DNA from: Acidobacteria bacterium Mor1
Lineage (GTDB): Bacteria; Acidobacteriota; Polarisedimenticolia; Polarisedimenticolales; Polarisedimenticolaceae
Assembly: GCA_001664505.1 (NCBI GenBank)
Contig: CP011806.1
Location: 5,323,873-5,387,872 of the forward strand
Direction of reading: 5' to 3'
Length of the DNA: 64,000 nucleotides
The notes beneath the pieces are model-generated. The model worked only from the letters and a program-made list of their open reading frames with translations. It was not told the DNA's origin and did no database searches. The translations under genes and the position numbers were made by a program. Below are positions 45,819-63,649 of this stretch, in pieces (position 1 is the stretch's first letter; each line of letters begins with the position of its first letter).

Positions 45819-47780
45819 CTAGTCGTCGAGGCTGCCGGGCATCGCGTCACCCCAGAGCACGCCGTCGCCCCAGAAGACACCATCGCCCCAGAACACGCCT
45901 TCTGCCCAGAGGATGCCGTCGGCGAACAGCAGCCCGTCGCCCCAGAGCAGCCCGTCGCCCCAGAAGACGCCGTCGCCCCAGAAGACGCCGTCGGCCAGCA
46001 GCAGCCCATCGGCGAAGAGCAATCCGTCGGCCCAGAGGATGCCGTCGGCGCTGAGCGAGCTGTCGGCGAACAGCAGCCCGTCACCCCAGAAAACGCCGTC
46101 GCCCATCAGGATGCCGTCGGCCCAGAACACGCCGTCCGCCCACAGGGTGCCGTCGGCGAACAGCAGCCCATCGGCGAAGAGCAGGCCGTCAGCCAGCAGC
46201 AGTCCGTCGGCAAAGAGCAGGCCGTCCGCCCAGAGGATGCCGTCGGCCAGCAGGAGTCCGTCGGCGAAGAGCAGTCCGTCGCCCCAGAAGACTCCGTCGC
46301 CCCACAGCATGCCGTCGGTCCAGAGCGCGGTGTCGCCGAAGATCGGATCGTCGCCGTAGATCGAGTCGTAACCGCTGAGCAGCATCGGGCGGCCGTTTTC
46401 GTAGCGCAGCAAGTAGAGAGCGATGCCTTCGGGGGTGCGGGCCATCAGCGGCGAACTGCTGTTGAAGCGCTGGACGAAGGCCTCGGCCTCGGCTTCACCT
46501 TCCAGCAGTTCGATGGCGGCCTCGATGTCCATCATGCCGGCGCCCCGCTGCAGCACGTCGATGTCGGCCCGCTTCTCGGCGGACTTCATCAGCGCCGCCT
46601 TGATGCCGTCGTTGGTCAGCTGCGGCTGCGCCTCGAGCAGGAGCGCCGCGGCGCCGCTGGCGAAGGCGGTGGACATGCTGGTTCCGGAGAGTTCGATGCC
46701 TTCCTCGCTGAGTCGCTCGGGGAACATCTCGACCATGGTGGAGCCGCTGGCTGCCGGAGCGACGATACGGTTGCCGGGAGCCACCAGATCCGGTTTGACC
46801 ACCAGGTCGCCGTAGGAGGGGCCCTGGCTCGAGTAGGTGGTCATGATGTCGTCGCCCCGGGTGATGGTGCCGAGGTCGTTGAAGGCGCCGACGGTCAGGA
46901 CCGACGGATCGTTACCGGGAGCGTTGATGGTGAACCGCCCGTCGCGGCCGCGGTTGCCGGCAGAGGCGATGACGGTCAGGCCGGACTGCCAGGCGCGGCG
47001 CACGGCGACGTTGACGGGATCGTAGCGGAAGGACATCTGGGGCGCGTAGCCCAGGGACATGTTGACCACGTCGATGCCGTACTCGTCTTTGTGTTCGATG
47101 GTCCAGTCGACGGCGGCGAGAACGCCCGAGAGGGTGCCGGCGCCTTCGGCGTCGAGCACCTTGATCACGATCAGATTGACGTCGGGGGCCACGCCGTTGG
47201 GCGCGCCGATGATGCCGGCGAGATGGGTTCCGTGGCCGTGTTCGTCGTGGGCGTTGCCGTCGGGGTCCACGAAATCGACCCGGGCCAGCACGCGGCTCTC
47301 GTCGAGCGCCTCTCCGGGGTTGAGTCCGCTGTCGATCAGGGCGACGGTCACCCCACGGCCGGTCACGTCGAAGCGTTCCCGGGCGATGTCGCCGTTGCTC
47401 GCCGCGACCGCCACATCCAGGTTGGCGTGGAGCGCGCGGTCGGCGGTGATCGAGAGCACGTCGTCCCGGGCGGCCAGGCGGCGGATCTGCGACGGGGTCA
47501 TGCGGGCCGACGCGGCGTCGATGCGCTCGCGGAAGTTGCCGGCGGCCACGAGGCGGTGGGCGTCGTCGGCGGCGCCCTGCTTGAACTGAACCACCACAGG
47601 CAGCGCTTGCTCGACGGTCACGGCGGCGCGGGAGGCGCGTCCGGTGTTGGCTTCTGCCCGGGAGAGCTGTTCCTGGAGTTCGATGCCGATGCGGGCTTCA
47701 GCCTGGACGGCGGTCACGGCCAATGCCGCGAGGATCAGGGTGGTGAAGGTACGGGTCAGGGTCCGGATCATCTTCTTCAT
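45819..47780 (-). CDS. Secreted S8 (subtilisin-type) peptidase with C-terminal hexapeptide repeat array
   Basis: A 653-residue subtilase. The ATG at 47780 has AGGAGGAAGCC before it and starts a signal peptide (LTRTFTTLILAALAVTAVQA). An I9-like propeptide region precedes the catalytic domain: Asp in VALIDSGLNPG, His in DEHGHGTHLAGI and Ser in GTSMSTAFASGAA. The last 170 residues are unlike any normal subtilase C terminus: 27 tandem six-residue units of the form [VIL]-[LF]-[WFL]-[GA]-D-G (45843-46328), with two degenerate units before them. The periodicity suggests a beta-solenoid or surface-attachment stalk. The gene is divergent from the ECF sigma factor at 47919. Confidence 0.93.
   Translation of the reverse strand: MKKMIRTLTRTFTTLILAALAVTAVQAEARIGIELQEQLSRAEANTGRASRAAVTVEQALPVVVQFKQGAADDAHRLVAAGNFRERIDAASARMTPSQIRRLAARDDVLSITADRALHANLDVAVAASNGDIARERFDVTGRGVTVALIDSGLNPGEALDESRVLARVDFVDPDGNAHDEHGHGTHLAGIIGAPNGVAPDVNLIVIKVLDAEGAGTLSGVLAAVDWTIEHKDEYGIDVVNMSLGYAPQMSFRYDPVNVAVRRAWQSGLTVIASAGNRGRDGRFTINAPGNDPSVLTVGAFNDLGTITRGDDIMTTYSSQGPSYGDLVVKPDLVAPGNRIVAPAASGSTMVEMFPERLSEEGIELSGTSMSTAFASGAAALLLEAQPQLTNDGIKAALMKSAEKRADIDVLQRGAGMMDIEAAIELLEGEAEAEAFVQRFNSSSPLMARTPEGIALYLLRYENGRPMLLSGYDSIYGDDPIFGDTALWTDGMLWGDGVFWGDGLLFADGLLLADGILWADGLLFADGLLLADGLLFADGLLFADGTLWADGVFWADGILMGDGVFWGDGLLFADSSLSADGILWADGLLFADGLLLADGVFWGDGVFWGDGLLWGDGLLFADGILWAEGVFWGDGVFWGDGVLWGDAMPGSLDD
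45843..46328 (-). repeat. 27 tandem 18-base repeats encoding WGDG/FADG hexapeptides
   Basis: In-frame tandem 18-base units encode six-residue repeats whose positions 5-6 are almost always Asp-Gly, position 4 Gly or Ala and position 3 Trp, Phe or Leu. Two classes alternate, a VFWGDG/VLWGDG type and an LLFADG/LLLADG/ILWADG type. Exceptions are ILMGDG, LLFADS, SLSADG and ILWAEG. Two more degenerate units extend to about 46364. Copy number may vary between strains. Confidence 0.9.
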
Positions 47781-47918
47781 GGCTTCCTCCTGCTTGTTTT
47801 CCCTCGAGCCTCGCGGCCGTCGGGGTGCTGTTTTCGCGTTCACCCCCCTTCTGCAGGAAGCGCCCGTGCCGGGTTACAGGGCCGCAGGATTTTTTTCGGA
47901 CTTTGGTAGGATTCGCCC

Positions 47919-54100: not shown

Positions 54101-54301
54101 CCAACTCACGCCGTCATGAAGCTGGATCAGCACCTCGCCGGGTGCGGCCTCGGCGCCCCTGGCCGCGGGTGCGTTGTTTCCGGGCAGGGGAGTGTCGCCG
54201 GCGGCGCCGAGGGGCGCCCATAGAACAAGGAGCGTCAGCAGCAGTACCGACTGCCGTGCGGCTCGTTCTTGCCTGGATGCTCCCGGTCGGCTGGCGCTCA
54301 T
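51155..54301 (-). CDS. Secreted S8 peptidase with CARDB, seven-repeat propeller and Fn3 domains
   Basis: A 1048-residue exported subtilase (ATG 54301; a GTG at 54328 is possible). After a signal peptide and a propeptide region comes the catalytic domain, with Asp in AVIDSGIDFAHEDLAGN, His in RFQHGTLMAGVIG and Ser in GGTSFAAAHVSGLAAL. A CARDB-like segment follows (DLQVGKATVAVGAPLPVTV). Then come seven repeats of about 40 residues of the TolB/WD40-like kind (GDRIVWVD, IYIYDLAADQERQV, GDKVVWRD), enough to close a propeller. An Fn3 domain (RIDLSWDASLESDVTGYAVYR) ends the protein. It probably degrades extracellular protein, with the C-terminal modules giving adhesion. Confidence 0.92.
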   Translation of the reverse strand: MSASRPGASRQERAARQSVLLLTLLVLWAPLGAAGDTPLPGNNAPAARGAEAAPGEVLIQLHDGVSWSQIQARYPELEAYGFGPGQRLFRVPQSEAAVRATFTRRSGRAPRQPQMPALARWGKVSFATDIDPARVAKHLRELPEVRHAEANVALHLDAVPDDTYADPEQDGSWSSGAWGQTYPDLWRLQNIEADRAWDLQTGDPNLVVAVIDSGIDFAHEDLAGNAWNNPGETPGNGVDDDGNGYVDDVSGWNFALNNNDVTDRFQHGTLMAGVIGAVGDNGTGIAGMVWQVQLMAVKVSTDTGATNLTALIQGITYAADNGADVINISLSNKGEAPQALRDAIAYAHGLGAVIVVSAGNSGSEIGDCANDISQLNDDLASFPACLDQTIAVGAVQHDDRIYFASNFGFNLDVTAPGSDDNVGDPNFNHLNILSTLSAQNQSVVFQRVGDRYYRDGGTSFAAAHVSGLAALVLSQQPDLSNEMVRAVIQASADDLGSGGFDDLFGWGRINAFRAVQQADAAANRVELIADLQVGKATVAVGAPLPVTVTARNAGQQGASNVTLEVFDGDPGAGGTLLYSDTLSNLGAGSAVTRQILIDLPSRGRRTLYAVVDRGNQVAEYFEQNNRTVRPVEAYSYRFESRELTSAAGRKYNATIWGDRIAWADERNLRDFPDIYIYDLAADQERQVTSRVGVEIAPMIQGDSIVWADLFETPDPVDTYDISHYDLASDQETEITDGFSAEVTPDVFGDRIVWVDARAGLGQAHIWGHDLSTGQNQQLTFGGQQEAPAIWGDRMVYLNNDAPFGISVKNLATGVETDLNLGGVGQTLHPDIYEQQVVYGDSRTGSTDIYLYDLASGQERVVSNAPGTQGRPHLYGDKVVWRDQRHSTGQWDVFLYDLTFDEERRVTRSLLEDNDPHIQGDRIVWVRTPNISQGTAQVWVAEIDDFPAALTGLSGNRNGNRIDLSWDASLESDVTGYAVYRSSTAGSGFTQVGTTSNAGFSDNVAAGTWYYRVTAIDAAGGEGGYSNETQVGGGTGPTTPDAPEGLRVQ

Positions 54302-54476
54302 GCTTGCCCCTACCCCGAATAGTCCCACTCGTCCAAAAATCTAGGGAATCTACCCTGATCTCTGCAACAGCGATGCCGCCGGTTCGGCGGCCACCCCGGG
54401 CCGGGGCGCGTAGAGAATACCCGTTTCGTGATCGAAAGTACCGGGTCAGACCTTCCCGGGGGTGCCCGGCGGTGGC

Positions 54477-55226
54477 TCAGCGCAATTCGGCCAGGATCGT
54501 CTCGGGGCGGACCCGGACGCGCCAGTTGTCGGTCAGCTCCCGCCAGGTGACGTCGCGCTGCTCGTCGAGGATGAAGACCGCGGGCCGGGAGATATCGGTG
54601 TCGGGCAGCCCGTCCTCGTGAAGCAACCCGAGTTTGCCGATCAACTCCAGGTTCGGATCGCACAGGACGGGGAAGTCGTAGCCCTGGGCCTCGATCGCCT
54701 CCCGCGATTCTTCGGGGTTGTCGGCGCTGACCGCGACCACCTCGGCGCCCAGGCTGCGGATCTCATCGATGCGTGACTGCAAACCTTGCAGTTCGGAGAG
54801 GCAGAACGGTCACCAGTAGCCGCGGTAGAACACCAGCACCACCTTGCGGCCGTCGAAGCTCGCCAGGTCGAAGGACTCGCCCCGGTGGGTTTGGAGGCTG
54901 AAGTTCTCGATCCGCGAGACTCCCGCTGCGGTTTCTCCCGTAGGCATCTGATAGCTCAAGACGAAGACGTAGAAACCGAACAGGCCGAGGAACCCGACCG
55001 ACAGCAGGGTGCCGAGTATGCCGAAGATCTTCGAGGCCAGGCGGCGGCCCTGGCCGAAGGCTCCGAACAGGCCTGCCAGGGAGAGAGCGACACCGAGTAG
55101 CGCCAGCGGCAGGTTGAGCCAGGGGAAGTCCCGCAGCGCAGGGATCGCGGCAAAGACCATGAAGTAGCTGATTACCGCGGCGAGGGTGACCAGCGGGCCG
55201 AGCCAGATGAAGTGCAGCCGGCTCAC
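54477..55226 (-). CDS. Membrane-anchored selenoprotein redoxin (in-frame TGA read as Sec139)
   Basis: The frame from GTG 55226 to TGA 54477 is interrupted only by TGA 54810-54812. Read through, it encodes 249 residues. Three membrane segments (about 10-30, 38-56, 67-90) precede a peroxiredoxin/AhpC-TSA-like domain. Its active site is FYRGYW-U-PFC, where U is the TGA codon at position 139 and C is 142, exactly where homologues have Cys (usually YRGxWCPFC). The fold continues intact after the codon (EVVAVSADNPEESREAI, RPAVFILDEQRDV). A hairpin 18 bases downstream resembles a bacterial SECIS. The GTG overlaps the ccoS stop (GTGA), coupling it to the cbb3 oxidase operon, so a role in redox handling of oxidase cysteines or copper sites is likely. 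Confidence 0.88.
54777..54791 (-). promoter_or_regulatory. Bacterial SECIS-like hairpin after the selenocysteine codon
   Basis: CTGCA-AGGTT-TGCAG forms a 5-base-pair stem (6 with the flanking A and T of the loop) starting 18 bases after the TGA. The loop carries GGU, with its GU about 26 bases from the codon. This is within the 16-37 base range described for bSECIS elements and close in form to the E. coli fdhF loop AGGUCU. Confidence 0.75.
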
Positions 55227-55393
55227 GGTGCCTTGGGCTTTCCGCTATCCGGATCCTGATCGTCGTGCAGCACCCGCATCGCCGGAGTCTCCATGTCGTC
55301 GAACTGGCCGGCCCGCGCCGCCCAGACGTAGGCGACCACGGCGATTCCGGCCATCAACAGAGCCAGCGGAAACAGGATGTAGAGCACTTCCAT
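55223..55393 (-). CDS. ccoS: cbb3 oxidase maturation protein CcoS
   Basis: A 56-residue membrane protein too short for routine ORF thresholds. It starts MEVLYILFPLALLMAGIAVV, the CcoS/FixS hallmark of a single helix, followed by AYVWAARAGQFDD and a charged tail (DDQDPDSGKPKAP). GGGAG precedes the ATG. It lies 21 bases after ccoI and overlaps the selenoprotein GTG start by GTGA. CcoS is needed to insert haem and copper into CcoN. Family identity is clear from the FxYxWAxxxGQFDD-type centre. Confidence 0.93.
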   Translation of the reverse strand: MEVLYILFPLALLMAGIAVVAYVWAARAGQFDDMETPAMRVLHDDQDPDSGKPKAP

Positions 55394-55414
55394 GGTGTCC
55401 GCTCCCAGGCGAGT

Positions 55415-57847
55415 CTAGAAGGTGCGCGAACGATACGACAACGTGACCACCGTCAGTGAGCTGATCGGCATCAGCACCGCCGCGATCAGCGGGTTGATCA
55501 ACCCCGCCACGGCCAGACCGCCGGTGACCAGATTGTACGCCAGCGAGGCCGCCATGTTGCGGCGAACCACGCCCATGGCTCGCCGGGAGCCGTCGATCAG
55601 CTCGACCAGCGGCGCGAGCCCGGGGCGGCTCAGATAGACGTCGGCGGCGCTCAGGCTGGCCTCGGCACCCCCCTGGACCGCCACGCCGACGTCGGCCGCC
55701 GAGAGGGCCGCGGTGTCGTTGACCCCGTCGCCGACCATGATCAGGGAGCCTTCGTCCCGGCGCAGAGCCTGGACGTGGCGGGCCTTGTCTTCCGGGGCGA
55801 CCCGCCCGTGAACCGCCTCATCCTCGAGGCCCAGGGTGCGGCCGATCGCCCGGGCGACCCGGGGATCGTCGCCGGAGATCATGCCCAGGTCGAAGCCCCG
55901 TTCCCGCAGGGCTTCCAGGGCGCCTGCCGCATCGGCTCGCAACGGGTCGCCGATTCCGGCGACGGAGACGACCTCCCCGTCCACGGCAATGCAGACCGGG
56001 GAGAGACCGGAAGCGATGACGTCACGCTCCCAGCCGGCTGCCCGAGAGGGGAGGCCGTCCGGCGCGGTGAAGGTGGCGCTTCCGATGCGTACTTCCCGGC
56101 CTTCGCAGCGGCCCGCGACCCCTTCGCCCGGGGCGTAGCGGATCCCCGAGCAGGCCACCGGGGCGCCGGCGCGCTCCCGTCCGGCCTCGACGAACGCGTG
56201 GGCGATCGGGTGGGCGACGCCCAGTTCCAGGGCGGCCGCGTAGCGGATGGTGTCGCGATCACCATGCAGCTCGATGAGCTCGGTGCGTCCTTCGGTCAGG
56301 GTGCCGGTCTTGTCCAGCAGCAGCCGGCCGTGGCGTGCCAGGGTTTCGATGGCCTCGCCCCCCTTGATCAGGATTCCCTTGCGGGCCGCCCGGCCGATGG
56401 CCGCGACCAGGGCCAAGGGCGTGGCGAGGCCGAGGGCGCAGGGGCAGGTCACGATCAGGAGGGCGATGGCGTTCTCTACCGCCGCGTCGGGGTCGACCCA
56501 CCACCAGCCGAGTAGCGTCGCCGCGGCCACGCTGAGCACCACCAGAACGAAGCGGTGGGCCACACGGTCGGCCAGGCGCACGACGCGCGGACGGTCCCGG
56601 GCGAAGGACTCGACCAGGTTCATCAGCCGTCCGACCCGGGTCTCCGCGCCGGTGCTGTCGACCCGGATGCGCAAGGGGGAGCCGAGGTTGGTCGTACCGG
56701 CGAAGACCCGGTCCCCGGGTTCGACGTTGACCGGCTCCGATTCACCGCTGAGCAGGGACAGGTCGAGACTCGAACGCCCGTCCTGGACTTCGCCGTCGCC
56801 GGGGATGCTCTCTCCGGGCAGCACCTCGACCCGGTCACCGGATTCGAGTGCCTCGACCGGGACATCCTCCAGGGAGCCGTTCCGCTGCACCCGATGCACG
56901 ACCCCGGGGGTCAACCCGTAGAGCAGGGCGACGGCATCGTGGGCCGCGTGTTGCTGGCGCTGCATCACGTAGCGTCCGACCAGCAGCAGGAAGATCACCG
57001 CGGTCAACGACTCGAAGTAGGTTTCCCCGGCGCCGCGCACGGTGTTGACCGCACCCCAGATCGTCCCGGCGGCCAGGGCCAGCGCAACCGGCAGATCCAT
57101 GTGCATCACGCCGGTACGGATCGACGCCCGGGCGCCGGCGAAGAAGGTGCGGCCGGGCCAGATCACCGCCAGCAGCGTCAGCCCCAACCCCGACCAGCGG
57201 AACAGTTCCCGGTACTCCGCCTCCATCCGGTCGAACATCCCGGCGAAGAGGGCGAAGGACATCAACATCACGTTGGCCGCGAGAGCTCCAGCCACGGCCA
57301 TACGCACCAGCAGACGGCGGGATTCCCTGCGGCGGATCTCGTCGAGGGGGGAGCCGACGTAGGGACGCGGCGTGTAGCCCAGGGAATCGAGGGTCTCGGC
57401 GATCCGGGACAGCCCGACCCGGGAGGGATCCCAGACGACCTGGGCACGCTTGCGGCCGAAATCGACCTGGATCGAGTTGATCCCGTCGACGACCCGGGGC
57501 GTGTGCTCGATCAGCCAGATGCAGGCAGCGCAGTGCATGCCCTCGAGTTGCAGCTCGATGCGCCGCAGGTTGCCGGGAAGCTCTTCGACGTGGCGCTGTT
57601 GAAAGGCGTCATGGTCGAAGGTGGCGAAGCTGCCCCCATCGGGGTTGGCCTGCAGGCCGGCTTCTTCGTCTCCCCGAAGCGAGTAGTAGCGGTCGAGGCC
57701 GAAGCCGCGGATGGTCTCGTAGACTGCGCGGCAGCCGGCACAGCAGAACTGGTGTTCCGCTTCGGCATCGTAGAGACCGGCCGGAACCGGCAGCCCGCAA
57801 TGATCGCAGGCGTCGGGAGCCAGCGGCTCCTGGCGCAGCACGCTCAC
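55415..57847 (-). CDS. ccoI: Copper-transporting P1B-type ATPase CcoI
   Basis: An 810-residue heavy-metal ATPase for cbb3 assembly. N-terminal metal-binding cysteines occur as CDHCGLP near 14, CCAGC near 37, and an HMA domain with MHCAAC near 105. The transmembrane copper site is TCPCALG near 467. The P-type catalytic motifs are DKTGT near 514, a TGES-type loop as LSGESEP, and GDGVND near 703. The start is GTG 57847, overlapping the SafE gene stop by four bases; a second GTG at 57841 is possible. CcoI supplies copper to CcoN across the inner membrane. Confidence 0.93.
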   Translation of the reverse strand: MSVLRQEPLAPDACDHCGLPVPAGLYDAEAEHQFCCAGCRAVYETIRGFGLDRYYSLRGDEEAGLQANPDGGSFATFDHDAFQQRHVEELPGNLRRIELQLEGMHCAACIWLIEHTPRVVDGINSIQVDFGRKRAQVVWDPSRVGLSRIAETLDSLGYTPRPYVGSPLDEIRRRESRRLLVRMAVAGALAANVMLMSFALFAGMFDRMEAEYRELFRWSGLGLTLLAVIWPGRTFFAGARASIRTGVMHMDLPVALALAAGTIWGAVNTVRGAGETYFESLTAVIFLLLVGRYVMQRQQHAAHDAVALLYGLTPGVVHRVQRNGSLEDVPVEALESGDRVEVLPGESIPGDGEVQDGRSSLDLSLLSGESEPVNVEPGDRVFAGTTNLGSPLRIRVDSTGAETRVGRLMNLVESFARDRPRVVRLADRVAHRFVLVVLSVAAATLLGWWWVDPDAAVENAIALLIVTCPCALGLATPLALVAAIGRAARKGILIKGGEAIETLARHGRLLLDKTGTLTEGRTELIELHGDRDTIRYAAALELGVAHPIAHAFVEAGRERAGAPVACSGIRYAPGEGVAGRCEGREVRIGSATFTAPDGLPSRAAGWERDVIASGLSPVCIAVDGEVVSVAGIGDPLRADAAGALEALRERGFDLGMISGDDPRVARAIGRTLGLEDEAVHGRVAPEDKARHVQALRRDEGSLIMVGDGVNDTAALSAADVGVAVQGGAEASLSAADVYLSRPGLAPLVELIDGSRRAMGVVRRNMAASLAYNLVTGGLAVAGLINPLIAAVLMPISSLTVVTLSYRSRTF

Positions 57848-58566
57848 CGTTGGCTCGCACAGCAGGATGGGGCGGCGTGGATGTCGACCGGTTCGGCGGC
57901 GCGCAGCGGCGGCATGTCGAATCGAGAGGAGATGGTCAGCAATCCGACCACCACAAGCGCGGTCGCCGTCAGCGCCGGAACGAAGCGCAGCGCCGGCCCG
58001 GCAAGGCGGCGGGCCAGCACGCCCAGAGCGGTCAGGACCGGCAGGGTGCCCAGCCAGAAGGCGACCATCAGGGCCGCGCCGTTCCAGGCCGATCCGCTGC
58101 CTGCCGCGGTCACGACGAAGGCGTAGAGCCAGCCGCAGGGCAGCAGGGTCGACGCCGCGCCGATCGCCAGGGCCCGGGGCATCGGAGGCACGCCCTCGAG
58201 GGAACGGTGAACGGCGGCGGACAGCCGGCGCAGAAACCCGGGAGGTTGGAAACGCGCCAGCCGTATTCCCGACAGGCGCAGCAACGACACCAGTCCGAAG
58301 GCGACCATCGCCCCGCCGGCCGCGGCCAGAGCCAGACGCTGCACGCCGAACACCGCGCCGCCGAAGTCGAGAGCGGAGCCGACCACCCCGGCCACGAGCC
58401 CCAGGGCGGTGTAGCTCAGCAGGCGCCCACCGTGGTACACCGCGACCCGACCGGCCGAGGGGCCGCGGGTACCCACGGCAAAGGCGACGAAGGGCCCGCA
58501 CATTCCGGCGCAGTGCAGCGAGCCGGTCAGGCTCGCGACCAGTACCGTGAGGAACAGTGCGGTCAT
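57844..58566 (-). CDS. Sulfite-exporter TauE/SafE-like membrane protein (cco cluster)
   Basis: A 240-residue six-helix membrane protein. The opening SLTGSLHCAGMCGPFVAFAVG, with Cys residues at the first helix end, is the signature of the SafE-like (DUF2202-type) subfamily that sits in cbb3 oxidase clusters between ccoH and ccoI. SLLRLSGIRL and a CGWLYAFVV stretch follow. It is transcribed within the cco operon with 4-base overlaps on both sides. Its function is unproven. Copper or sulphur-compound handling during assembly is commonly suggested. Confidence 0.87.
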   Translation of the reverse strand: MTALFLTVLVASLTGSLHCAGMCGPFVAFAVGTRGPSAGRVAVYHGGRLLSYTALGLVAGVVGSALDFGGAVFGVQRLALAAAGGAMVAFGLVSLLRLSGIRLARFQPPGFLRRLSAAVHRSLEGVPPMPRALAIGAASTLLPCGWLYAFVVTAAGSGSAWNGAALMVAFWLGTLPVLTALGVLARRLAGPALRFVPALTATALVVVGLLTISSRFDMPPLRAAEPVDIHAAPSCCASQR

Positions 58567-59060
58567 TGCCGTGCGTCCCGAGGTTCGGTCACGACGCTCT
58601 TGCGGAAGCGGTCGACGTAGAGGTCATCCCCCCGTTCGATCCGCACCCGGAATTCCCAGACGCCGGCACGTTGCAGGGGAAGCAGGTCGCTGTAGAGACC
58701 GTCTCCTTGATGAGGAAGCTCCCAGCCCCGGAGGTCGCCGAGCCGGGCGTTGTGGAACCCTTCCAGGTGCACGCGGGCATCGTCGATCGCCGCGCCCAGT
58801 TCATCGACCGCTTCCAGGCGCAGTTCGACCTGGCCACGGGTCGTCGCCGGCAGAGCCCGTAGCTTGACCTCCCAGCCGAGGGCCTCGCTTTGTTGCCGTT
58901 CCCGCTTGAGGGCATCCCACTCCAACGCCTTGCGTTCGTATTCGGGCTCCAGGGCGAAGGACGGGTCGCTGGAGGCGATGACGATCATGGCCGCCTGGAT
59001 ACCCACCGACAGCAGCAGCAGACCCACGACCAGGCCGATCCAGACTCTTCCGTTGTTCAT
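58563..59060 (-). CDS. ccoH: cbb3 oxidase accessory protein CcoH (FixH)
   Basis: A 165-residue protein with a single N-terminal membrane helix (VWIGLVVGLLLLSVGIQAA) and a beta-sandwich domain in the periplasm. The FixH-like sequence includes SDPSFALEPEYERKALEWD just after the helix. RIERGDDLYVDRFRKSVV ends it. Its start overlaps the ccoG stop (ATGA). FixH/CcoH stabilises the oxidase complex and helps insert CcoP. Sequence conservation in this family is low, so the helix position and operon order weigh in the call. Confidence 0.88.
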   Translation of the reverse strand: MNNGRVWIGLVVGLLLLSVGIQAAMIVIASSDPSFALEPEYERKALEWDALKRERQQSEALGWEVKLRALPATTRGQVELRLEAVDELGAAIDDARVHLEGFHNARLGDLRGWELPHQGDGLYSDLLPLQRAGVWEFRVRIERGDDLYVDRFRKSVVTEPRDARQ

Positions 59061-60478
59061 CGTGTGCCTCCCTGCGGCATGTTGCCGCGGTTGCCGCCGG
59101 AGTAGAGCGGCCCCATCAGGTGGTGGGGGAAATTGCGGTCGAATTCGGCGCCGTCCTCGACACGGACGCCGATGTCGGCGCGGCCCTCGGCGAACCGGTC
59201 CGGCGCGACGGTCAGGTGCAGGGTGATCTGGCCCGAGGCTCCCGGTTCCAGCAGCAGCGGCAGGTCGCCGCTCCGTTGTTCCCGGACGCCGTCGACGGTG
59301 ACCCGGTAGCTCCGGGCCGACTCATCCCGGTTGACGATCTTGATCAGCAGGGTGCTGGTGATGTCCCCCGAGGGCAGCACCTGGTAGGGCTGGCCCCGAT
59401 GCCGGAGGAAGGAAACGTCGGCGCTGCCCTTCTTGGCCAGGGTCAGGCTGAACAGGCTTACCAGCACGATCAGCGCCAACGGATAGACCACCACCCGAGC
59501 CCGGAGCAGCCGGGAGCGGCCTTCTTCCATCGCCTGCTGGGAGCTGTAGCGGATCAGGCCGCGGGGCTTGCCCACCTTGTCCATGATCGTGTCGCAGGCG
59601 TCGATGCACTGAGCGCAACCGATGCACTCGAGCTGCAGGCCGTCGCGGATATCGATGCCGGTGGGGCAGGTGACGACGCAGGCCTTGCAGTCGATGCAGT
59701 CTCCGGTACTTGCCGGAGCGTCTTTCTTGAGCTTGCCCCGGGGTTCCCCCCGTTTCACGTCATACCCGATGATCAGCGATTGACGATCGAGCAGCACCGA
59801 CTGGAAGCGGCCGTAGGGGCAAGCCAGGGTGCACATCTGCTCACGGAAGAAGCAGAAGTCGATCATCATCAGCAGCGTCGTTCCAGCCATCACCAGAAAG
59901 GCCGCCGGATGAGACAGCGGGCTCTGCCGCACCCACTGAGCCAGGGTCTCCACCCCGACGAAATAGGCCAGGAACACGTGGGCCAGGAACATCGAGATCA
60001 GGAGAAAGGTCAGGTACTTGCCGATAGCACGTGGGGCGCTCAGCGGGACCCGGCCGCCGGACTTGTAGTGCTTGCCGTCGAAGAAGCGCTCCACCGGCCG
60101 GTAGACCAGCTCCATGTAGACCGTCTGGGGGCAGCCCCACCCGCACCACACCCGGCCGAAGAGCGCCGTCAGCAGGAAGATCGTGACGAAGATCGTCAGC
60201 AGCAGGAAGGCCAGCAACAGGGTGTCGGTGGGCAGGAAGGTGCGGCCGAAGAAGGTGAACTGCCGGTTCGGCAGATCGAGCAGCATCGCCGGCTTGCCGT
60301 TGATGCGGATATAGGGCAATGCCGCGAACAGAACGATCAGGGCATACCCGACCGCCTTGCGCCCGATCAGGAATCGTCCCGGGGAGAGGCGCGGACGGAG
60401 CCAGCGGCGCGATCCGTCCTTGTTCAAGGTCGCCAGGACCCGCTCTTCGGCGGTTGGGATCGAGTGTGGGTTGCTCAT
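59057..60478 (-). CDS. ccoG: cbb3 oxidase accessory iron-sulphur protein CcoG (FixG)
   Basis: A 473-residue membrane ferredoxin-like protein. Five hydrophobic segments include AVGYALIVLFAALPYIRI near the start. The GRVWCGWGCPQTVYMEL motif lies between segments two and three, and 4Fe-4S cysteines are seen in CIDCKACVVTCPTG and CIGCAQCIDACD. A C-terminal periplasmic beta domain completes it (TVDGVREQRSGDLPL). CcoG reduces copper for CcoN maturation. The start is uncertain. The ATG at 60478 is used here; a GTG at 60496 has no better ribosome binding site. Confidence 0.93.
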   Translation of the reverse strand: MSNPHSIPTAEERVLATLNKDGSRRWLRPRLSPGRFLIGRKAVGYALIVLFAALPYIRINGKPAMLLDLPNRQFTFFGRTFLPTDTLLLAFLLLTIFVTIFLLTALFGRVWCGWGCPQTVYMELVYRPVERFFDGKHYKSGGRVPLSAPRAIGKYLTFLLISMFLAHVFLAYFVGVETLAQWVRQSPLSHPAAFLVMAGTTLLMMIDFCFFREQMCTLACPYGRFQSVLLDRQSLIIGYDVKRGEPRGKLKKDAPASTGDCIDCKACVVTCPTGIDIRDGLQLECIGCAQCIDACDTIMDKVGKPRGLIRYSSQQAMEEGRSRLLRARVVVYPLALIVLVSLFSLTLAKKGSADVSFLRHRGQPYQVLPSGDITSTLLIKIVNRDESARSYRVTVDGVREQRSGDLPLLLEPGASGQITLHLTVAPDRFAEGRADIGVRVEDGAEFDRNFPHHLMGPLYSGGNRGNMPQGGTR

Positions 60479-60573
60479 GGTGCGACTCGCTTCCACCTCG
60501 AGGGGAGCGGCGTCGCGCGTCGCCGCTCCCGGTTCTTGTCAAACGGTGTACAGGCGTGGCCGGGCCCGCCTGC

Positions 60574-61182
60574 TTACTCGCCGGCGTTCTCGTCGATGCC
60601 GGCGGCCGACGCTGCGGGCCAGGCGGGAATCGGATCGCCCTCGGGCGCCTTGCCCGGCAGCGGGTTCTCGCGGAGATGGGCCACGTAGGAGCTGACCAGC
60701 ACCAACTGGGTTTCGGTGAACTGGTCTCCCCAGGCAGGCATGCCCTTGGTGGTGATCCCGGTGCGGATCACCTCGGCAATGTCGGTGACCCCCTTGACGT
60801 TCTTCCAGTGATCGTCGGTCAGGTTGGGCCCGACACTGCCGGAACCGTCCGCCAGGTGGCACTGGGAGCACTTGCCCTTGAACAGGCCCTTCATCGCCAG
60901 CATGGCGTTCTCGTCTTCCATCATCCGCAGGATCGTCGGTTCGTCGACGCTGAGGTCCCCGTAGGTAGCCAGCAGCTTCTCGGCGTAGGCCGCCTGCTCG
61001 GCTTCCAGGGCGTCGAGGATCGAGGGGCCGTTGCCGATGTGGTACCAGAGCACGTAGGGGAAGGCGAACAGGGCCGACAGGACGAACATCCAGACCCACC
61101 AGGCGGGCATCGGGTTGTCGTACTCGCGGATCCCGTCGTACTCGTGATCGAACAGCTTGTCGTGATAAGGCTCTTCGGCCAT
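60574..61182 (-). CDS. ccoP: cbb3 cytochrome oxidase subunit III, CcoP-like (mono-haem)
   Basis: A 202-residue membrane-anchored cytochrome c. GGAGGAACCC precedes the ATG. A CcoP N terminus is recognisable (YDGIREYDNPMPAWWVWMFVLS, then a helix), followed by one c-type haem site CSQCH at 105-109 and a distal Met in TTKGMPAWG. Typical CcoP has two haem c sites; this one has a single site. The C terminus is Ala/Pro-rich. CcoP passes electrons from a soluble cytochrome to CcoO and CcoN. Confidence 0.92.
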   Translation of the reverse strand: MAEEPYHDKLFDHEYDGIREYDNPMPAWWVWMFVLSALFAFPYVLWYHIGNGPSILDALEAEQAAYAEKLLATYGDLSVDEPTILRMMEDENAMLAMKGLFKGKCSQCHLADGSGSVGPNLTDDHWKNVKGVTDIAEVIRTGITTKGMPAWGDQFTETQLVLVSSYVAHLRENPLPGKAPEGDPIPAWPAASAAGIDENAGE

Positions 61183-61193
61183 GGGTTCCTCCG

Positions 61194-61393
61194 CTACTCC
61201 GGACGGGTGGCGTGGTCGACGCCTTGGGGTTCGTCTTCCAGCGGGATGCGTGATGCGCGCTGGAACATTTTCGATTTGCTGAAGCAGAGCCACAGCACCA
61301 GGCCGGTGAAGGAGATGAAGAAGACCAGCATCAGCACGGTCTTGATCTGGGTCACCGCGGACTCGGTAATGGCCAGGAGGGCGATGGCGGCGT

Positions 61394-61397
<4 letters not shown>
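61194..61397 (-). CDS. ccoQ: cbb3 oxidase subunit CcoQ-like
   Basis: A 67-residue single-helix protein (TQIKTVLMLVFFISFTGLVLWLCF) with a polar C-terminal tail (SKMFQRASRIPLEDEPQG), as in CcoQ/FixQ subunits. The hydrophobic core and the RASRIPLED tail support the call, but short membrane proteins are weakly conserved. The ATG overlaps the ccoNO stop (ATGA). CcoQ stabilises the CcoNOP complex. Confidence 0.85.

Positions 61398-63649
<2,252 letters not shown>

Follow-up and report, generated by a model that had tools for sequence, protein, structure and literature searches.

The last gene of a cbb3 oxidase cluster in Acidobacteria bacterium Mor1 almost certainly encodes a membrane-anchored redox protein whose selenocysteine (Sec), as judged from comparison with its relatives, has been kept across a whole bacterial phylum. 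In the reading that we favour and hold to be quite probable, the product is a three-helix Prx-like UxxC selenoprotein, presumably a periplasm-facing oxidoreductase, whose gene was taken into the cbb3 operon in this lineage. The gene occupies positions 54477..55226 of the 64,000-nucleotide stretch analysed here (the window) and is read from the minus strand (55226 to 54477). Its 250 codons, not counting the stop, specify three predicted membrane helices (54954..55211; model residues 6-27, 35-55 and 58-91), a linker and an AhpC-TSA/redoxin domain with the sequence WUPFC.

Translation is assigned to a GTG start at 55226, with the first four bases, GTGA, overlapping the TGA stop of ccoS. After 138 codons the frame meets a TGA at 54812-54810 (codon 139) in the context ...FYRGYW-U-PFC..., followed by the codon for Cys142 (54801..54803), the second redox residue of the UxxC motif, and continues for about 110 further codons to a second TGA (54476-54474), the stop codon of the gene. 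When the first TGA is read as a residue, the joined protein scores 98.8 bits against PF00578 (AhpC-TSA; cut-off 26), and the segment 5' of the TGA alone reaches 22 bits and stays under the cut-off. The protein therefore combines a UxxC motif with a PF00578 score above the cut-off, the two features of the Prx-like UxxC thiol:disulfide oxidoreductases. The initial annotation had already described the GTG start inside the ccoS stop, the in-frame TGA with its frame running on, the three helices and the likely misannotation as two fragments wherever the TGA is taken for a stop, and our analysis agrees on each of these points. Neither a sigma-70-like promoter within 54250-55450 nor a terminator-like site 3' of the gene in the same interval was found.

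The finished host genome (5.985 Mb) carries the complete machinery whose presence had been proposed as a check: a tRNA-Sec with the anticodon TCA (UCA), selA (516 bits, cut-off 268), selB (330 bits, cut-off 242) and selD (358 bits), the last with an in-frame TGA of its own. A first contig scan returned Cys-type relatives because its active-site pattern encodes Cys, and the unbiased test came from whole-genome searches reading through stops. Across 396 genomes of the phylum, such searches gave matches in 98, most of them with exactly one TGA. The TGA lies at exactly the position of codon 139 in 23 of the 25 members with the three-helix N-terminus (window counted), and the remaining two have a Cys codon there (TGC or TGT), so that the alignment returned the Cys homologues for which it had been suggested. 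None of the 25 lacks the second Cys of UxxC, and conservation of the UGA extends down to about 25-30% identity. A UGA at a conserved Cys position together with Cys homologues is the pattern by which bacterial UGA-decoded selenoproteins are recognised. Within the window's own class, which was searched completely and reading through stops, 11 of 41 genomes contain the gene, every one with TGA. One homologue, L118 (G082:C292), has membrane and redoxin parts that match in different frames; this shift before the UGA domain is a frameshift or an assembly error.

Among the Sec-gene genomes tested, selB was detected in 20 of 21. The exception, G343 (L101, L124), has the UGA gene and the conserved hairpin described below; its assembly is 93% complete and lies in 820 contigs, and the missing selB is thus probably missing sequence. 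As for the two Cys-type genomes, G148 is without selB and G385 has it. In the close pair G007/G008, dN/dS is about 0.09 downstream of the TGA and 0.14 upstream, values which indicate that the segment after the UGA is under purifying selection. Taken on these comparisons, UGA139 is almost certainly decoded as Sec by the organism's own SelA, SelB, SelD and tRNA-Sec, with the help of a downstream hairpin.

That hairpin, ACUGCAA-GGU-UUGCAGU (54776..54792, minus strand), places its loop 24 nt beyond the UGA. The bSECIS model, as outlined in the relevant part of PMC13188914, comprises a loop of 3-9 nt, a stem of 4-16 bp, a G within the first two bases of the loop, a distance of 16-37 nt from the UGA and an MFE <= -7.5. 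The window hairpin fits this geometry, at -6.4 kcal/mol for the hairpin alone and -12.5 kcal/mol for the 58-nt fold from the UGA. Each of the 24 Sec genes studied, which are related and hence not 24 independent cases, carries a hairpin at a distance of 16-24 nt from the UGA, with a G within the first two bases of its loop. Over these genes the mean hairpin energy is -7.0 kcal/mol, compared with -2.8±0.5 kcal/mol for synonymous recodings (0/1000 as low), and the two natural Cys genes have a hairpin of at most -1.6 kcal/mol or none. The hairpin is thus highly significant across the family, although unexceptional in the window gene by itself (p=0.23 against synonymous recodings). When the region 3' of the UGA was folded without constraints, no significant signal emerged against shuffles or synonymous recodings (z 0.06 for the window, mean z -0.4 across genes), because the energy of a whole region ignores where the hairpin lies; the decisive test is the one constrained by position and loop rules. 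Consequently, the bSECIS-like hairpin noted earlier at a suitable distance stands, and the proposed fold of the bases after the TGA bears it out family-wide under these constraints, though neither as a plain fold nor for the window gene on its own. Rfam SECIS_1 and a cmscan of the whole window returned no matches, a null result that is uninformative, since SECIS_1 matched in 0 of 14 control genomes too.

The Sec genes fall into two hairpin layouts, with the loop either 24 nt (clade A) or 16 nt (clade B) after the UGA. Clade A, comprising the window, its family and three other genomes, is recovered with good support as a single group in the gene tree and has the hairpin CUGCAA-GGU-UUGCAG, the core of which is base-identical in six genomes whose proteins are only 41-50% identical to that of the window; within the clade, G005 has a divergent hairpin. 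The clade A hairpin uses codons that are rare in the host genome (GGT 8%, TTG 7%). In clade B the hairpin CUCCG-AGUUA-CGGAG shows double compensatory changes, and covariation is 0.271 compared with 0.137±0.032 after shuffling (0/500 as high). The two conserved layouts lend themselves naturally to a comparison of SelB recognition. A broken gene, with the TGA as a genuine stop and a mere relic beyond it, is what standard annotation alone would read here, but the same TGA in 22 relatives, the purifying selection 3' of it, the constraint on the hairpin and the complete Sec machinery of the host all speak against such decay. We give this reading practically no credence, as the conserved position of the TGA refutes it.

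The host genome and the window hold further features of interest. A second UGA redoxin of the host genome, L018 (G000:C1:4541381-4541662, minus strand), has an apparent signal peptide, the motif FYRGGW-U-PYC and, at 21 nt from the UGA, the hairpin GACAGUUG-GGU-CAACUGUC (E -8.6; p 0.03 relative to synonymous recodings). A PrxQ/Bcp-type peroxiredoxin, L021 (G000:C1:5924691-5924942, minus strand), has Sec at its peroxidatic position (STPGU). Elsewhere in the window, an S8-type peptidase (45819-47843) ends in a C-terminal part in which an 18-base unit, encoding a hexapeptide repeat of the LLFADG/VFWGDG type, recurs about 26 times.

The initial annotation had placed the Sec at the peroxidatic Cys of an AhpC/TSA-like domain, an assignment that our alignments to PrxQ-type proteins of the same genome and to solved peroxiredoxins overturn. 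In these, the Thr of PxxxTxxC is matched by Sec139 and the peroxidatic Cys by Cys142, so the Sec lies three residues earlier, as the first redox residue of a thioredoxin-type WUxxC. The peroxiredoxin Pro is replaced by Arg and the peroxiredoxin Arg by Pro, and this Pro lines up, by alignment position only, with the Pro of the TlpA/ResA-like paralogues L022 and L024. With Sec at the Thr position, Cys142 at the peroxidatic position and Arg changed to Pro, the site W-U-P-F-C resembles a thioredoxin WCxxC in which Sec takes the leading place. The protein accordingly has the CxxC-type site of ResA/TlpA proteins and, by alignment position alone, their cis-Pro, and it falls outside the peroxiredoxins, which are defined by PxxxT/SxxC and a catalytic Arg. 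Membership of the Sco/SenC family was likewise rejected, with PF02630 at 14.5 bits (cut-off 22.8).

On this evidence the window protein is probably a thiol:disulfide oxidoreductase for which peroxidase activity is possible; we keep the latter because the domain is closest to peroxiredoxins in overall sequence and fold (BcpB, AhpE). A membrane-bound Sec peroxidase, working on the outer face and clearing H2O2 or lipid peroxides there, would suit the best Pfam and fold matches, which are of the peroxiredoxin type, the position of Cys142 at the peroxidatic site and the high peroxide reactivity that Sec would confer. Yet the active-site Pro, Thr and Arg of peroxiredoxins have become R, U and P, and a WUxxC site with a cis-Pro is the pattern of a disulfide oxidoreductase, so that we consider a peroxidase of this kind unlikely, if deserving of some weight. 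In overall fold the matches include peroxiredoxins and ResA alike.

For the oxidoreductase that we prefer, hydropathy and charge, the only basis for the topology, suggest an orientation: the N-terminus and the second loop (GQGRRLASK) are positively charged, which by the positive-inside rule would place the N-terminus inside and the redoxin domain on the outer, periplasmic face. There the Sec selenolate would be the attacking group, directed at a disulfide or else at a peroxide or sulfenic acid; Cys142 would then resolve the adduct to form a Sec-Cys selenenylsulfide that a DsbD/CcdA-type electron carrier may re-reduce. With Pro at the thioredoxin cis-Pro position, the W-U-P-F-C site would work in the manner of ResA/TlpA. 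The protein may serve the phylum as a whole in a house-keeping redox role that has no fixed partner gene; in the window lineage its gene would have been inserted behind ccoS and co-transcribed with the cbb3 cluster, as the 4-base overlap suggests. Such co-transcription would express redoxin and oxidase together, but would be no proof that the redoxin acts on the oxidase.

Profile matches confirm that the gene closes a cbb3 operon in the window, as had been proposed, in the order ccoNO (fused)-Q-P-G-H-safE-I-S, all on the minus strand. The cluster comprises the fused ccoN-ccoO (61394..63649; NF011053, 1208 bits), a ccoQ-like small membrane protein (61194..61397; PF05545 (FixQ), 22.5 bits, below the cut-off of 29), a ccoP-like c-type cytochrome (60574..61239; TIGR00782, 79.6 bits, below the cut-off of 180), ccoG (59057..60496; TIGR02745, 432 bits), ccoH (FixH; 58563..59060; PF05751), the DsbD_2 or 'safE' membrane protein (57844..58566; PF13386, 131 bits), with cysteines in HCAGMC and LPCGW, the copper P-type ATPase gene ccoI (55415..57844; HMA and ATPase-cat_bd domains) and ccoS (55223..55393; TIGR00847, 61.7 bits), whose stop overlaps the selenoprotein start by 4 bases. 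The 'safE' protein, with its two membrane Cys motifs, is retained in the cbb3 operons of four relatives, and possibly is an electron carrier to periplasmic thiols. A search for FNR-type boxes gave one match with a mismatch, which is not upstream of the cbb3 operon.

The position of the gene and the three membrane helices had led to the proposal of a selenium-dependent step in cbb3 maturation or copper delivery. As a dedicated maturation factor, the Sec redoxin would reduce the heme-site cysteines of apo-cytochromes or a CuB copper chaperone in a TlpA/ScoI-like manner, fed by the operon's DsbD_2 protein; the 4-base overlap with ccoS, a UxxC domain that would face the periplasm and that DsbD_2 protein, with its membrane cysteines, all agree with such a role. 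The relatives do not follow. No cbb3 operon was found in 23 other homologue neighbourhoods (up to about 9 kb per side, several ended by contig ends), where the sole match to an operon protein is a weak CcoG-like one (E 1e-6) in L103, and no neighbour gene is conserved across the loci, the multi-locus clusters being kinases, regulators and shadow reading frames. A CcoNO match is absent from 14 of the 18 other Sec-gene genomes tested; in the remaining four (G007, G008, G343 and G139) a cbb3 oxidase exists elsewhere in the genome, on a different contig from the Sec gene in G007, G008 and G343. In the other direction, a cbb3 operon without the Sec gene occurs in G006 (same family; CcoNO 76% identity) and in G002 (same order; CcoNO 69% identity). 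The cbb3 operons of G002, G006, G007 and G008 share the gene order of the window, but nothing redoxin-like directly follows ccoS in any of the four, where the next genes are unrelated; the ccoS-redoxin junction is therefore peculiar to the window genome among the genomes compared.

Since the UGA gene is kept in many genomes without detectable cbb3 and the relatives' ccoS has no redoxin behind it, a dedicated cbb3 role is not supported by these comparisons and we regard it as improbable; the position behind the cbb3 genes is probably not a general role of the protein. Co-expression with the operon is likely from the 4-base overlap, and a lineage-specific cbb3 link, in favour of which gene position is the one argument, is possible. 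Its more specific form, a recruitment into cbb3 biogenesis in which the operon's DsbD_2 would pass electrons to the periplasmic UxxC redoxin and so keep heme- or copper-site thiols reduced, has in our estimate a slim chance of being correct; if true, an aerobic terminal oxidase would become selenium-dependent. A partial literature search found no link between a selenoprotein of this kind and cbb3. The case also illustrates how an appealing operon story from a single genome can fail once relatives are checked.

The protein preferred here, a Prx-like UxxC oxidoreductase, has counterparts among known systems. Prx-like thiol:disulfide oxidoreductase selenoproteins that combine UxxC/UxxU with PF00578 have been predicted as a class before, according to the sections of PMC13188914 and PMC9312934 that treat them and, under the name 'Prx-like 1', the corresponding section of PMC2398784. 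Like the window protein, they are described there with an AhpC-TSA domain with UxxC and a bSECIS directly downstream; the sections of the three papers on these proteins mention no N-terminal membrane helices, of which the window protein has three. With ResA/TlpA it has in common a WCxxC-type site, the cis-Pro position, a membrane tether and, presumably, the extracytoplasmic side, and it differs in having Sec in place of the first Cys, three helices where they have a single anchor, and an oxidase linkage that is not conserved. PrxQ/Bcp and AhpE resemble it in overall fold (TM-score by target length about 0.82-0.85) and have a Cys at the position of its second Cys, whereas the window protein lacks the Pro/Thr/Arg of the peroxidase site and has its Sec three residues earlier. 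Sco/SenC copper chaperones share the thioredoxin-like fold, but the PF02630 match is weak and under the cut-off.

Measured against these descriptions, as far as they extend, the three-helix membrane form is a new addition to the known UxxC selenoproteins. An annotation that stops at the UGA misses this branch, which would add to the UxxC selenoproteins a membrane-anchored and probably periplasm-facing form conserved across the phylum.
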